From positions 1 to 42,021 of the forward strand of contig JBCCIS010000044.1 of NCBI GenBank assembly GCA_039028155.1: a stretch of DNA of 42,021 nt, written 5' to 3'. Shown here piece after piece: positions 2,666 to 8,506 of this stretch; position 1 is the first letter of the stretch, and every line of letters begins with the position of its first letter. The stretch comes from Pseudomonadota bacterium (GTDB lineage Bacteria; Pseudomonadota; Alphaproteobacteria; SP197). The notes below the pieces were generated by a model that ran no database searches, was not told the DNA's origin, and saw nothing but the letters and a program-made list of their open reading frames with translations. A program made the translations under genes and the position numbers.

Positions 2666-3618
2666 AGTCGCGCGCGGCGCTGCTGGCTGTTCTGTTGCTG
2701 GCAACAGGTTGTGCCACGGCGCCGTCATCAAGCGAACGGATTGATTTCGATAGCGCCAACTATGGTTTCCTGAACGAGGTCATGACGGGGGACGCCGGGC
2801 AGCCTCAAGGCGTTTGGGGCTACCTGATGACGCCCGACAGTCCGCCACCGTGGCCCGCCGTCATTCTGCTGCACAGCGCATCGGGACCGGGCAGCCAGGA
2901 TTGGTTCTACGCCGAACTCTTGCGCGACGCCGGCTACGCCGCCTTTGTCGTCGACAGCTTTGGCGCACGTGGCGTCACACGCACGGTCGACGATCAGACG
3001 CTGGTGACAGAGGCCAGTATACTGGCCGACGCGTTCGCGGCACGTCGCGCGCTTGCGGCCGATCCGAGAATTGACGGCGACAGCATCGCCCTGGTCGGCT
3101 TTTCCAAAGGCGGCATCGCCGCGCTTTATGGTGCGCTTGAAACGATCCGCGCCGCCTATGGTGGTGACCGTTTCGCCGCCCACGCGGCGTTCTATCCATG
3201 GTGCGGCCTCAGGCCCCTGGACACGACAACGACCGGCGCGCCGGTGCTGATCCAGATGGGCGATAACGATAACGTCACGCCGGCTGTGTTGTGCCGCGAT
3301 CTCGTGGCGTCGATGGCGGGTGAGCCGGTCGACCTCGTGATCTATCCGGGCGCCCGCCACGCCTTCGATCATCCGACTCTAGACGGTCTGGACTGGGTGC
3401 CCGTCACCGGCATGATTCCGTCCGACTGCCTGATCGAGGAGACCGGTCCTGGTGTCTTCGTCGAACGCACCACTGGCGACACGGTCGATGGTGCGTCGCT
3501 CGGCGACGTGCTCACCGCGTGCGGGCGGCGTGGCGCCGAGGCCGGCGGCAATGCCGAGGCGGCGGCCGCGGCGCAGCAAGCGCTGCTCGACTTCCTGGCG
3601 GCCGCCTTTTCGCCATAG
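2662..3618 (+). CDS. Dienelactone hydrolase-family lipoprotein
   Basis: A 318-residue alpha/beta hydrolase with a lipoprotein signal: a positively charged start, a hydrophobic run, then LLLATGC with the lipid-modified Cys17. The nucleophile motif is GFSKGG (Ser148), with Asp203 in MGDNDNVTP and His233 in GARHAFDHP completing a triad. Classical dienelactone hydrolases use Cys as nucleophile; serine here suggests a general esterase. The GTG start overlaps the previous stop as GTGA, so it is very likely co-translated with S-formylglutathione hydrolase. A membrane-anchored extracytoplasmic esterase next to a cytoplasmic formaldehyde enzyme has no obvious metabolic reason, and the substrate is unknown. 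A long imperfect stem-loop follows the stop. Confidence 0.85.
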   Translation: MKSRAALLAVLLLATGCATAPSSSERIDFDSANYGFLNEVMTGDAGQPQGVWGYLMTPDSPPPWPAVILLHSASGPGSQDWFYAELLRDAGYAAFVVDSFGARGVTRTVDDQTLVTEASILADAFAARRALAADPRIDGDSIALVGFSKGGIAALYGALETIRAAYGGDRFAAHAAFYPWCGLRPLDTTTTGAPVLIQMGDNDNVTPAVLCRDLVASMAGEPVDLVIYPGARHAFDHPTLDGLDWVPVTGMIPSDCLIEETGPGVFVERTTGDTVDGASLGDVLTACGRRGAEAGGNAEAAAAAQQALLDFLAAAFSP

Positions 3619-3622
3619 TGCC

Positions 3623-3670
3623 GGGAACGGCGTTTTAGCTAAGCGCTTGAAATCGCTAGCTTCCGTTCCC
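3623..3670 (+). other. Long imperfect stem-loop between hydrolase and hsp20
   Basis: GGGAACGG at 3623-3630 is complementary to CCGTTCCC at 3663-3670. Inside it, AGCTA at 3637-3641 and GCG at 3643-3645 pair with CGC and TAGCT at 3654-3661. The structure could end transcription of the upstream operon, but no T-run follows. The apical loop holds the CTTGAAA element proposed as the hsp20 promoter -35, so DNA-level roles overlap here. Confidence 0.45.
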
Positions 3671-3677
3671 ACGTTAA
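3646..3677 (+). promoter_or_regulatory. Candidate sigma-32 (RpoH) promoter of hsp20
   Basis: CTTGAAA at 3646-3652 matches the -35 core of heat-shock promoters. Counting from CTTGAA (3646-3651), a 16-base spacer leads to CCCACGTTAA beginning at 3668, a partial match to the RpoH -10 element. Transcription would start near 3680-3685 and leave a leader of about 90-95 nucleotides before the hsp20 ATG. The assignment is inference from motif and position. Confidence 0.5.
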
Positions 3678-3688
3678 CCCTCGTGCCG

Positions 3689-3774
3689 CCGCCATTTCGG
3701 GGTGGCATATGCCGGTTTGCCATTGGATTCCGGCATTGAACGTCAGGCCCTCGCTCAGTGGAGGAGATGCCCCT
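3689..3774 (+). promoter_or_regulatory. ROSE-like RNA thermometer in the hsp20 leader
   Basis: The leader folds on paper into three successive hairpins. GCCA (3691-3694) pairs with TGGC (3703-3706). ATGCCGG (3709-3715) pairs with CCGGCAT (3730-3736). The last hairpin hides the ribosome site: UCGCU at 3751-3755 pairs with AGGA at 3762-3765, leaving the central G bulged. C3750-G3766 extends that helix, and GGC (3746-3748) pairs with GCC (3769-3771). U(U/C)GCU pairing with AGGA around a bulged G is the defining feature of ROSE elements, which control small heat-shock genes in alphaproteobacteria. The multi-hairpin layout and the target gene also fit. Melting of the last helix at high temperature would expose the ribosome site; this has not been tested here. 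Confidence 0.65.
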
Positions 3775-4236
3775 ATGGCCCGAATGACGGCCTTTGACAG
3801 CCCGCTTTTGCTGGGTTTTGACCATTTCGAGCGTGTGCTCGATCGGGTCGCCAAAACGTCCAGCGACGGCTATCCGCCCTACAACATTGAGCAGATCGGC
3901 GAGAACGGCCTCAGGATCACCCTGGCCGTGGCCGGCTTCACCATGGACGATTTGAGCGTCCTGGTGGAGGAAAACCAGCTGATCGTGCGCGGCAAACAGG
4001 TCGACGACGACAAGCGGATCTACCTGCATCGCGGCATCGCCGCGCGCCAGTTCGTGCGCAGCTTCGTGCTCGCCGAGGGTATCGAGGTTGTCGGCGCGTC
4101 GCTCGACAACGGCCTACTGCATGTCGACCTGGAACGGCCGATCCCGGAGGTCAAACAAAAGGTCATCGACATCAAGGCCGGCGACGGAACCGGTAGCCGC
4201 GCCAAGATCGTCGAGGGTCTGGAGCAGAAGTCCTGA
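3775..4236 (+). CDS. Small heat-shock protein, Hsp20/alpha-crystallin family
   Basis: A 153-residue Hsp20 chaperone of the IbpA-like bacterial class. The short N-terminal arm has PLLLGFDHFERVLDRV. The alpha-crystallin domain follows, roughly residues 35-130, including LAVAGFTMDDLSVLVEEN and the conserved A-x-x-x-N-G-L-L motif (GASLDNGLLHVDL). A charged tail with an I-x-I-type segment (VIDIKAG) closes it. Such proteins bind unfolding polypeptides without ATP and hand them to other chaperones. An in-frame ATG exists at 3709, but it lies inside the structured leader. The ATG at 3775 has GGAGGAG about 9 bases upstream and gives the family N-terminus, so it is chosen. Regulation is probably by a sigma-32 promoter plus an RNA thermometer. 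A DUF1150 gene follows 41 bases downstream. Confidence 0.93.
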   Translation: MARMTAFDSPLLLGFDHFERVLDRVAKTSSDGYPPYNIEQIGENGLRITLAVAGFTMDDLSVLVEENQLIVRGKQVDDDKRIYLHRGIAARQFVRSFVLAEGIEVVGASLDNGLLHVDLERPIPEVKQKVIDIKAGDGTGSRAKIVEGLEQKS

Positions 4237-4277: not shown

Positions 4278-4508
4278 ATGCCGAACACGGAGAACACATT
4301 CAAAGACGCGATCGCCGCCATGTCGCCGGAGGCGTTCGCCAAAATGGGCGCGCCGCATCTGGCCTATGTCGCGCCGGTCGAGACCGAGCAGGGCAAGGCC
4401 TATGGCATCCATGGCGCGGACGGCAGCCTGCTGGCCGTCGTCGAATCGCGTGAGCTGGCGTTTGTCGCCGCGCGCCAGAACGACCTGGAGCCGGTCAGCA
4501 TCCAGTAA
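4278..4508 (+). CDS. DUF1150 family protein
   Basis: A 76-residue protein with the DUF1150 pattern: an N-terminal acidic helix, then MGAPHLAYVAPV and YGIHGADGSLLAVVESRELA, ending in a short tail. The family is small, alphaproteobacterial and functionally uncharacterised. It commonly sits directly behind an hsp20 gene, as here (41 bases), so a link to the heat-shock response is plausible. A strong ribosome site (GAGGAG at 4265-4270) precedes the ATG. No membrane segment or cysteine pair is present. Confidence 0.85.
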   Translation: MPNTENTFKDAIAAMSPEAFAKMGAPHLAYVAPVETEQGKAYGIHGADGSLLAVVESRELAFVAARQNDLEPVSIQ

Positions 4509-4828: not shown

Positions 4829-5746
4829 GTGTCATCCAATCCATCCCCCGACGGCGACTGGCGCGGCCGGCTTCACGGCATCGCCTTTATGTTGGTCGGC
4901 ATCACGCTGTTTGCCTGGCATGACGCGCTGAACAAATGGCTGGTGACGGCCTATTTCGTCTACCAGCTGTTGCTGTTGCGGTCGCTGTTTTCCTTTGTGC
5001 CCGTGCTGGTACTGGTCCGCCGGGCAGGCTTCCGCAAGACGCTGACGACACGCAAGTTCGGCGCGTTGCTGCTGCGTGGCTTCTTGTTGTTCATGGCGTT
5101 CGCGACCTGGGTCGGCGCGCTCGACATGGTGCCGCTTGCCGACATGGTGGCGGTCGGGATGGCGATGCCGCTGGTGGTGACGGCGTTCGGTGCGCTGCTG
5201 CTGGGCGAAACCGTCGATGCCCGGCGCTGGGCCGCGATCTTCGCCGGGTTTTTCGGCGTTCTGCTGATCGTCGGGCCCAGCGGCGAGTTCCCGTTGGCCG
5301 CGACCATGCTGGCGATGTCCTCGGTGGTCTTTTTCGGCATGGCGTTCGTGCACACGCGCCGGTTGGGTGTGACCGAATCTGCCGAGACCATGGTGCTCTT
5401 CCAGATCATCTTCAACAGCATCGGCAGCGGTGTGGTGCTGCTGATCCTGCCTGGCGAATGGCTGACACCCAGCATCGTCGACTGGGGTCTTTTCGCCGCC
5501 GTTGGTCTGTGCGCGGGCCTCGCCCAATTCTGCATGACCAGCGCGTTCCGTGCCGCGCCGCTATCGGTGGTCGCGCCCTTTGAGTACCTCGCGCTCGTCT
5601 GGGCTGTTATCCTGGGTTATGTCGTTTGGGGCGACATTCCGGATCTATGGTCGGTGGCGGGGGCTCTGATTGTGGTCGCGAGCGGTCTTTACACGGTGTA
5701 CAGGGAGGCGTCGCTGCGACGCGCGACTTCCGGCGGGCCGCCTTGA
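4829..5746 (+). CDS. EamA-family (DMT superfamily) transporter, first of four
   Basis: A 305-residue membrane protein with about ten hydrophobic segments in two EamA repeats, the standard DMT architecture. The first segment begins RLHGIAFMLVGITLFAWHDA. The second repeat ends with PFEYLALVWAVILGYVVWGD, the family's final-helix pattern. Members export or exchange metabolites such as amino acids or nucleobases; the substrate is unknown. The GTG at 4829 is the start that leaves a short hydrophilic N-terminus. It is the first of four adjacent paralogues on this strand. Its stop shares one base with the ATG of the next gene (TGATG), indicating an operon with tight coupling. Confidence 0.9.
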   Translation: MSSNPSPDGDWRGRLHGIAFMLVGITLFAWHDALNKWLVTAYFVYQLLLLRSLFSFVPVLVLVRRAGFRKTLTTRKFGALLLRGFLLFMAFATWVGALDMVPLADMVAVGMAMPLVVTAFGALLLGETVDARRWAAIFAGFFGVLLIVGPSGEFPLAATMLAMSSVVFFGMAFVHTRRLGVTESAETMVLFQIIFNSIGSGVVLLILPGEWLTPSIVDWGLFAAVGLCAGLAQFCMTSAFRAAPLSVVAPFEYLALVWAVILGYVVWGDIPDLWSVAGALIVVASGLYTVYREASLRRATSGGPP

Positions 5747-6639
5747 TGGCCAGCCACGCCCACCGACCGCTGCTCGGCATCGTCTACATCAACGTCGCGT
5801 TAATGATCCTTGCCTGCAACGAGGCTTTGATCCGGCTCCTCACAGAGGACTATTCACCGATCCAGATCGCCTTCATTCGGTTCGTCGTCATGGCGATCCT
5901 GGTCGGTGCCGCCATCGTCGGCATGAAGCGTCGCGAGCTGTTCCAAGCCAACAGATGGTGGCTTTTGGTTCTGCGCGGTGTGCTGGGGGCCATCGCGAGC
6001 GGCAGCTTCTTCTTCAGCATCAAGTTTCTTGAGCTCGACGACGCGACCACGATCAGCCTATCGGCGCCGATCTTCGTCGCGGCGCTGTCGGGCTGGCTTT
6101 TGCGCGAACGCGTCCCGGCGGCCCGATGGGGCGCCGTTGTTCTGGGGTTTGTGGGGGTCGCCATCGTCATGCGCCCGGGCGCCGGGCTGTTCAATATCTG
6201 GGCCTTCGTCGCGTTCATCTCGGCCGGCGCTTACGCGCTCGCCATGATGGTCAACCGCGTCCTCACGCGCACGGAAGACAGTCTGACAATCATCTTTTAC
6301 TTCCCTCTGTTCGGCAGCCTAACACTGTTGCCGTTCATGCCGTTTCTCTGGACGTCAACGCCGGCCTCGGAATTCCCGATGCTCTTCGCCGTCGGTCTTC
6401 TCGCGGGCATCACGCAGTACTTGATGATGCAGGCTTATCGCTTTGCCGCCGCAAACACGGTGATCACGTTCGATTACATGGGTGTGCTCTACATTGCGAT
6501 CATCAGCTATCTGGTCTTTGCCGAGATCCCCAGTTGGAACCTGATTGCCGGCGCCGTGCTGCTGATCGCCAGCGGTATCTTCATCGTTTATGACGAAGCG
6601 CGACAGCTCAAACGCATGGCGGGCGAGAGCAAGGCGTGA
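5746..6639 (+). CDS. EamA-family (DMT superfamily) transporter, second of four
   Basis: A 297-residue, roughly ten-helix EamA protein. It opens with LLGIVYINVALMILACNEAL and ends with TFDYMGVLYIAIISYLVFAE before a short charged tail. The frame stays open upstream to 5626, inside the preceding gene. The ATG at 5746 overlaps the previous stop by one base and places the first helix correctly, so it is used. Its N-terminus and that of the third transporter (LLGIAYINVAVIFYALQDGL) are clearly alike, pointing to a local duplication. The physiological substrate cannot be inferred. Confidence 0.9.
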   Translation: MASHAHRPLLGIVYINVALMILACNEALIRLLTEDYSPIQIAFIRFVVMAILVGAAIVGMKRRELFQANRWWLLVLRGVLGAIASGSFFFSIKFLELDDATTISLSAPIFVAALSGWLLRERVPAARWGAVVLGFVGVAIVMRPGAGLFNIWAFVAFISAGAYALAMMVNRVLTRTEDSLTIIFYFPLFGSLTLLPFMPFLWTSTPASEFPMLFAVGLLAGITQYLMMQAYRFAAANTVITFDYMGVLYIAIISYLVFAEIPSWNLIAGAVLLIASGIFIVYDEARQLKRMAGESKA

Positions 6640-7496
6640 GGGCTGGTGATCGATCGCTTCTGGGCATCGCCTATATCAATGTTGCCGTCATTTTTTATGC
6701 GCTACAGGACGGTCTGGTCCGTTACCTGACTGCGGACTATCCGGTGCTCCAAATTCAGTTCGTCCGCTCGGCGGTGATGATGTCGACCATGCTCGTGATC
6801 ATCGTGTCGCTGCGACGTTTCGCCGATCTGAGACCACGTCGGCTGGGATTGCTGATGTTCCGCGGGTACACGAGCCTGATCGGTGTCGCCCTGATGTATC
6901 TGGTGTTGGCCAACATGGCGCTAGCCGACGCGTTCACCATCTTCATGACCGGTCCAATCTTCATTGCGCTGTTCGGTATTCCGATCTTGAAGGAGAAGGT
7001 TGGTTTAACGCGCGCGATTGCCATTGGCGTCGGATTCATCGGCGTGGTGGTCATCATGGAGCCGGGCAGTGGCGTCGCGACCCAATGGGCCATCGTTGCC
7101 TTGCTGGGCGCTGCGATCTATGGGCTTGCCATGGTCACGACACGTGACCTGACCAAATCGGAAAGCAGCCTGACCATCGTCCTGTTCACCAATCTGTTCG
7201 TCGTTGCGGTTCTGCTGCCGGTGCAGCCTTTCATATGGGTTGTTCCGCCGCTTACCGATCTTGTGTTGTTGCTGGCGGTTGGCGCCTTGGCGACGCTGGC
7301 GCAGTTTCTGCTGGCCCAGGCCTATCGTCACGCCAGCGCCGCGACCGTCGCGCCGTTCGACTATGTCGCCTTCATCTATGTTGTCATCGTCGGCTATCTG
7401 ATGTTCGGCGAGGTGCCCACCTGGCAGGTTGGCCTGGGCGCCGCTATCCTGATCGCCAGCGGTTTGGTCATGGTACGCCACGAGCGCGGTCGCTAA
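6636..7496 (+). CDS. EamA-family (DMT superfamily) transporter, third of four
   Basis: A 286-residue EamA protein with two five-helix repeats. The GTG start overlaps the previous stop by four bases (GTGA), so translation is probably coupled. The first helix reads LLGIAYINVAVIFYALQDGL and the last-repeat signature is PFDYVAFIYVVIVGYLMFGE. It is the closest relative of the second transporter among the four by eye. All four keep the (P/T)F(D/E)Y signature near the C-terminus while loops and mid-protein helices differ. That pattern fits either divergence in substrate or paired function. Confidence 0.9.
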   Translation: MRAGDRSLLGIAYINVAVIFYALQDGLVRYLTADYPVLQIQFVRSAVMMSTMLVIIVSLRRFADLRPRRLGLLMFRGYTSLIGVALMYLVLANMALADAFTIFMTGPIFIALFGIPILKEKVGLTRAIAIGVGFIGVVVIMEPGSGVATQWAIVALLGAAIYGLAMVTTRDLTKSESSLTIVLFTNLFVVAVLLPVQPFIWVVPPLTDLVLLLAVGALATLAQFLLAQAYRHASAATVAPFDYVAFIYVVIVGYLMFGEVPTWQVGLGAAILIASGLVMVRHERGR

Positions 7497-7576
7497 GAAT
7501 TACCATTCTAAGCGTTGCGCTGCGCCCGCCATGGCTCTATGCGAGTGTTTCCAACGTCCATTCGGACCACACCAAC

Positions 7577-8506
7577 GTGTCAGATTCTGCAAAGTCCGCC
7601 GACCAGGGCTCGCCGGTCGTCGCGATCGTTTTGATCAGCCTGTCGATCGCCGCCTTCTCCGTGTCCGACGCCATCGTCAAATGGGTCGCAGGCGAGTATC
7701 ACTTCACCCAGATCATTCTAATCCGCAGCCTGGTCGCGGTCCCGTTTGCATTGATACTGGTGGCGCGCAGCGGTGGCCTGCACCGTCTGGGTTTCGTCAG
7801 TCACCGCATTGTCCTGATGCGCGTCGTCTTTGGCACGACATCCTTCATCACCTTCATCGAGGCGCTCAAGGTGCTTCCGCTCGCCGAGACGGTCGCGGTG
7901 TCGTTCGCTGGACCGTTGTTCATTACAGCGCTGAGCGTTCCGTTGCTGAAAGAAAAGGTCGGGCCAAGGCGCTGGGCGGCGGTCGTCGTCGGATTCGCTG
8001 GCGTCCTTATCATCATGGAACCGGGCACGGCGGTGTTCCAGCCGGCCGCACTATGGGCGCTCGCCTCGGCCGCATTCTACGCGCTTGCAGCGATTGCCAC
8101 GCGCAAGCTGGCGGTTGCGACATCGACCGCGGTCATCCTGGTCTGGGTCAACGGCTACATTCTCGTCATCATGGCGATTGGCGTCGTACTGCTGGATACC
8201 TGGGTTGCCATGGACTGGCTGGGTCTGGCCCTGCTGCTCGGTATCGCGTTTGCCAGCACGATCGGTCAGTACCTCGGCGTTGAAGCGTTTCGTCGCGCCG
8301 CGCCGTCGTTGCTGGCGCCGTTCGACTATGTGGCACTGATCTGGGCCGGATTCCTGGGCTTCATGATCTGGCATGAGATCCCGTCGTGGAGCCTGGTTGG
8401 CGGTTCCGCCGTTCTGGTCATGAGCGGTCTTTACATCCTGCAGCGCGAGCGCGCGCTGGCGCGCAATGCGGTCACCGGCTATCGGGGCCTGCGCCGCTGG
8501 CGGTAG
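7577..8506 (+). CDS. EamA-family (DMT superfamily) transporter, fourth of four
   Basis: A 309-residue EamA protein with about ten membrane segments, starting near VVAIVLISLSIAAFSVSDAI and ending with PFDYVALIWAGFLGFMIWHE. The frame is open back to 7235 inside the previous gene. The only credible start after that gene's stop is the GTG at 7577, which gives a 14-residue hydrophilic lead; the ribosome site is weak. An 80-base gap separates it from the third transporter, so it may have its own promoter or be read through. It converges with the M23 peptidase gene, leaving seven bases between stops. Confidence 0.88.
   Translation: MSDSAKSADQGSPVVAIVLISLSIAAFSVSDAIVKWVAGEYHFTQIILIRSLVAVPFALILVARSGGLHRLGFVSHRIVLMRVVFGTTSFITFIEALKVLPLAETVAVSFAGPLFITALSVPLLKEKVGPRRWAAVVVGFAGVLIIMEPGTAVFQPAALWALASAAFYALAAIATRKLAVATSTAVILVWVNGYILVIMAIGVVLLDTWVAMDWLGLALLLGIAFASTIGQYLGVEAFRRAAPSLLAPFDYVALIWAGFLGFMIWHEIPSWSLVGGSAVLVMSGLYILQRERALARNAVTGYRGLRRWR

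Follow-up and report, generated by a model that had tools for sequence, protein, structure and literature searches.

The hsp20 gene of the window (the whole stretch of 42,021 nucleotides analyzed here, from an uncultured alphaproteobacterium) is very probably controlled by an RpoH promoter followed by a ROSE-type RNA thermometer in the leader; we put the probability of this reading at roughly 0.85. By analogy with the ROSE elements that have been studied, heat would raise the level of RpoH (sigma-32), which would drive hsp20 transcription from about position 3682. At growth temperature, the transcript would form three hairpins, the last of which would hold the UCGCU strand on GAGGAG around the bulged G3753 and block ribosome binding. 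At heat-shock temperature, the weakened stem would open and Hsp20, perhaps together with the downstream DUF1150 protein, would be made. The features are listed in Table 1.

Table 1. Features of the hsp20 locus (positions in the window)
Feature	Position	Strand	Basis
RpoH (sigma-32)-type promoter: -35 CTTGAAA (3646-3652), 15-nt spacer, -10 CCCACGT (3668-3674)	3646-3674	+	Sequence, conservation
Predicted hsp20 5' UTR, putative ROSE-type RNA thermometer	3682-3774	+	Start predicted from promoter; RF00435 alignment; held-out model
Hairpin I: GUGCCGCC-(G3691)-CC-AUUUC-GG-GGUGGCAU, one bulged G	3683-3708	+	MFE fold; covarying pairs (14 leaders); bulged-G hairpin count
Hairpin II: AUGCCGG/CCGGCAU, tip U3718-(G3719)-CC-AUU-GG-A3727	3709-3736	+	Stem from MFE fold, tip pairing by eye
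Hairpin III: GGC, CUC (3750-3752), bulged G3753, CUC (3754-3756), loop AGUG, GAGGAG (3761-3766), AU, GCC	3746-3771	+	Sequence; fold at 30 and 37°C; outer-pair covariation
UYGCU anti-SD motif, here UCGCU	3751-3755	+	Sequence; conservation
Shine-Dalgarno (SD) GAGGAG, predicted sequestered	3761-3766	+	Sequence; fold
hsp20 (small heat-shock protein, 153 aa)	3775-4236	+	Pfam PF00011, E = 1.4e-16
DUF1150 gene	4278-4508	+	Pfam PF06620, E = 8.9e-14

Promoter and gene context of hsp20

The Hsp20 protein starts with MARMTAFDSP, a beginning that sequence comparison showed to be kept in the orthologs. The reading frame is open further upstream, with starts at -66 (position 3709) and -39, and translation from the in-frame ATG at 3709 would make the region coding and the hairpin incidental. 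We regard this as hardly credible, since in-frame stops lie close upstream in the orthologs (-15 in L004, -54 in L006, and -15 in L053), the differences in leader length are not multiples of three, and 3775, beside a strong SD sequence, is where the conserved protein begins. The 5' neighbor of the region 3646-3774 is a dienelactone-hydrolase-like gene ending at 3618. The DUF1150 gene begins 41 nt past the hsp20 stop codon and probably shares the hsp20 transcript. Farther along the plus strand, four consecutive EamA/DMT-like transporter ORFs (4829, 5626, 6636, and 7235) were recognized by eye from their translations within window positions 4829 to 8506.

The promoter combines a CTTGAAA-type -35 and a CCC-AT-type -10 at a spacing within 13-16 nt; it matches 12 of the 14 consensus bases (CTTGAAA/CCCATAT) and is conserved before the orthologs. 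Most of 89 related hsp20 loci carry, at a similar place, CTTGAAA, CTTGACG, or CTTGCAA followed after 14-15 nt by CC(C)A-AT. A score of at least 11 of 14 was reached by 61% of these leaders versus 3.5% of shuffles, and one of at least 12 by 22% of the relatives versus none of the shuffles. The position of the promoter predicts a transcript start at about 3680-3683 and hence a leader of about 92-95 nt. The original prediction, in which CTTGAAA served as an RpoH -35 giving a leader of about 90-95 bases, was thus borne out by the match, by its conservation, and by a predicted leader of about 93 nt. It had also proposed a double transcriptional and translational control in this lineage. Such combined control is not special to the lineage; small heat-shock genes with ROSE elements are usually regulated at both levels.

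Structure of the leader and its conservation in relatives

In hairpin III, as read from the sequence, U3751 pairs with A3765, C3752 with G3764, C3754 with G3763, and U3755 with A3762, with G3753 bulged. The pairing of UCGCU with AGGA around a single bulged G that had been proposed for this site is therefore exact, and it extends to CUC(G)CUC/GAGGAG. With Watson-Crick pairs at all six core positions, this stem is possibly tighter than that of the classical UUGCU elements; just three outer pairs lie beside the bulge, followed by an internal loop and GGC/GCC. The two further hairpins expected 5' of the SD hairpin were recovered as hairpins I and II in the minimum-free-energy fold, and the relatives have a hairpin at the position equivalent to hairpin II. 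The leader of this small heat-shock gene thus has the anatomy of a ROSE-like element: its 3'-proximal hairpin pairs a U(U/C)GCU strand with the SD and leaves one G unpaired, and additional hairpins lie 5' of it. The folding energy of the leader was not exceptional (z = -1.02). Attenuation was dropped as a candidate mechanism because a search of the leader turned up no intrinsic terminator.

The relatives comprised hsp20 from 9 genomes of the family (that of the window included) and 80 loci, some on the same contigs, from named records of Rhodospirillales, Acetobacteraceae, Magnetospirillum, Skermanella, Tistrella, and others. TYGCT followed by AGGA was found in 79% of 85 distinct related hsp20 leaders, far above the 3.3% obtained after shuffling upstream of the SD; with looser letters the motif was present in 93% of leaders versus 11% of the shuffled ones. 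Among 324 control genes, namely, other genes with an SD from the same loci, only 7 (about 2%) had it, and six of these were hsp20 leaders or alternative hsp20 starts. Three related hsp20 genes (L065, L082, and L120) have no UYGCU strand, and the L082 leader is AT-rich; in these the thermometer may have been lost or the start wrongly chosen. The Acetobacteraceae-type loci (L073, L074, L076, L079, L083, L086, L091, L093, L095, L104-L107, L109-L111, L113, L115-L118, and L121) mostly have leaders of about 60-70 nt that fold into just two hairpins, together with GCUUCGCUC as the anti-SD strand and the promoter CTTGCAA ... CCAAAAT, a lineage form with 14 or 15 nt between the two boxes.

Pairing in the leader has been conserved through compensating changes. 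When the three-hairpin structure was evaluated on an alignment of 14 leaders made with MAFFT and not fitted to it, 81% of the cells were paired and 12 of the 22 pairs showed changes on both sides. The covariation score was 0.271 versus 0.180 in shuffles and was reached by none of 500 shuffles, although such controls overstate significance because related sequences share ancestry. Structures slid by 1-3 columns all scored below the unshifted one. In a test anchored on the core of the SD hairpin alone, 47 and 49 of the 73 distinct leaders retained outer pairs 4 and 5, respectively, with several pair types (shuffled means, 29.5 and 27.1; observed values reached in 0 of 1,000 shuffles), and outer positions 6 and 7 gave no covariation signal in the same leaders. 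The smaller alignment was used because a set of 39 leaders proved too diverse to align well; MAFFT with RNAalifold recovered just the last two hairpins from it.

A covariance model was built from 10 leaders, with those of the window and its genus mate held out. Its top-scoring place within the window was 3680-3780 (27.8 bits; E value, roughly 8.5e-4), and the next place scored 19.8 bits. In 46 loci (149 kb) that had contributed no sequence to the model, 35 of the 36 matches at an E value of at most 0.1 fell on hsp20 leaders and ended at the hsp20 start. When whole genomes were searched with this model, the window site was missing from the output, probably lost at the first-look filter; its 27.8 bits from cmsearch on the window outscored the match that was reported genome-wide in its genome.

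The search with the Rfam ROSE model that had been suggested as a check gave a divided answer. ROSE (RF00435) was the sole match among 4,227 Rfam families to the 231-nt stretch 3600-3830, and it aligned in full length (model positions 1-94 of 94) at 3685-3779, ending at the start codon. In the last hairpin, the core pairs followed the consensus and the lower stem was weak. The score was 18.4 bits, below the gathering cut-off of 45, and at that threshold Rfam gave no match in the leader region; the window leader is therefore not counted as a curated member of the family. The E value was 1.1 over all families and about 3e-4 for ROSE alone, the family having been named beforehand. Across the genome of the window, this leader ranked third (E value, about 6). 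The best place was the leader of a second hsp20 gene, at 26.8 bits; the next, G000:C1:234188-234272 (19.0 bits), was taken as a chance match because it lies on the opposite strand inside a long ORF (CobT-like by eye).

The cut-off itself turned out to be poorly suited to these genomes. The orthologous leaders of the genus mate and of G001 scored 24.2 and 25.6 bits, respectively. In 16 genomes of the same family, the strongest RF00435 matches lay mostly before hsp20, at 24-39 bits, and the places with an E value of at most 1 were mostly hsp20 leaders. In a class sample of 190 genomes, the four best places outside the family were all directly before hsp20. In both sets the best matches lay at hsp20 leaders whose core is the classical UUGCU, yet 45 bits was reached in 0 of the 16 and 0 of the 190 genomes. 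The cut-off thus fails to part hsp20 leaders from background here, and the curated model is too strict in this lineage.

Bulged G residues and the predicted response to temperature

Each of the three hairpins has a single bulged G, placed near the loop in I and II. We counted hairpins in which the 5' strand has one unpaired base, flanked by at least 4 outer and at least 2 inner pairs. Those with a bulged G numbered 1.71 per hsp20 leader versus 0.31 in shuffles, an approximately fivefold excess, whereas those with a bulged A, C, or U were rarer than in shuffles (0.08-0.15 versus 0.20-0.33 per leader). The leaders of other genes had 0.42 bulged-G hairpins, and those of a second hsp20 class had 1.8. 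The RF00435 consensus has a bulged G in hairpin I, so the enrichment is partly a family trait already in the model; within the part of the literature covered, we found no discussion of the bulged G in hairpin II or of its generality. One tentative idea, which we hold to be possible rather than probable, is that ROSE leaders in this alphaproteobacterial branch are repeats of one short hairpin module (Y-G-CY ... RG-R), whose one bulged residue, a G, lies two or three pairs beneath the loop, and that this module serves in all hairpins, including those that do not cover the ribosome site. The 5' hairpins may then themselves be heat labile or read by a protein.

Nearest-neighbor folding gave no clear opening of the SD, which was unpaired at 0.33-0.39 throughout 20-55°C, the step from 30 to 42°C included. 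This flat exposure, the all-Watson-Crick core, and the unremarkable free energy of the leader would suit a ROSE-derived fold that caps hsp20 translation and is not a sensor, the temperature response coming from RpoH only. We consider this unlikely, because nearly every relative retains the bulged G even though its removal gives a tighter lock. With G3753 removed in silico, the SD was unpaired at only 0.01-0.03, locking the site, and the hairpin without the bulged G had -12.5 kcal/mol versus -8.7 kcal/mol with it (37°C). That the weak point is conserved argues for regulated opening. Nearest-neighbor energy models predict the melting of thermometers poorly. In the short ROSE-like elements of Pseudomonas, mutations that let the U(U/C)GCU strand pair completely block thermoregulation (PMC3669281).

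Hairpins I and II are conserved and extensive and are not required for hiding the SD, as might be the case if the leader were read mainly by a protein, for example, by Hsp20 repressing its own mRNA via the ROSE region, with thermosensing secondary. IbpA of Escherichia coli reportedly represses its own mRNA in this way, by binding the ROSE region. Such reading by a protein is compatible with a thermometer and does not exclude one; as the main function of the leader we find it very improbable. A thermometer that opens with heat is the reading we retain.

Comparison with known ROSE elements

The second hsp20 leader of the same genome (G000:C3:145445-145550; L002 and L127) resembles that of the window in having an RpoH-type promoter (CTTGAAA ... 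CCCATAT) and the ROSE architecture. It differs in its classical core, UUGCUC/GGAGGAUAU (UUGCUC/AGGAGGAUAU), and its paralogous protein is 47% identical. Since this gene has its own promoter and ROSE leader, both hsp20 paralogs look thermometer controlled.

Like the rhizobial small heat-shock leaders of RF00435, the window leader, which aligns with that model along its entire length of about 94 nt, has three hairpins, a bulged G in hairpin I, and UYGCU paired to the SD in hairpin III, and it too precedes a small heat-shock gene. Unlike them, it has an all-Watson-Crick UCGCU core, and its sequence diverges in hairpin II and the outer portion of hairpin III. With the short ROSE-like element found at ibpA in Pseudomonas (PMC3669281) it has in common a 3' hairpin in which U(U/C)GCU covers the SD, a G-C-rich 5' hairpin, and the small heat-shock gene, but that element has two hairpins in about 62 nt, compared with three in about 93 nt here. 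The Acetobacteraceae relatives, with two-hairpin versions of about 60 nt, differ from the window leader in the same respect. A bulged G in the anti-SD strand is also found in ROSE-G (PMC12857270), which has CUGCU, an opposing bulged G in the SD, and a place upstream of ABC transporter genes (PMC12857270). The window leader is not assigned to that class, for its motif is UCGCU, its SD side is unbulged, and its gene does not encode an ABC transporter.

The function of the ROSE 5' hairpins has been described as not fully understood (PMC3669281), and the recurrent bulged G in them offers a concrete handle on their role. ROSE thermometers are well described in rhizobia and gammaproteobacteria; the present leaders would extend them to Rhodospirillales-like and Acetobacteraceae-related hsp20 genes that the Rfam cut-off misses, and the three-hairpin alignment of these leaders provides a basis for a better ROSE model.
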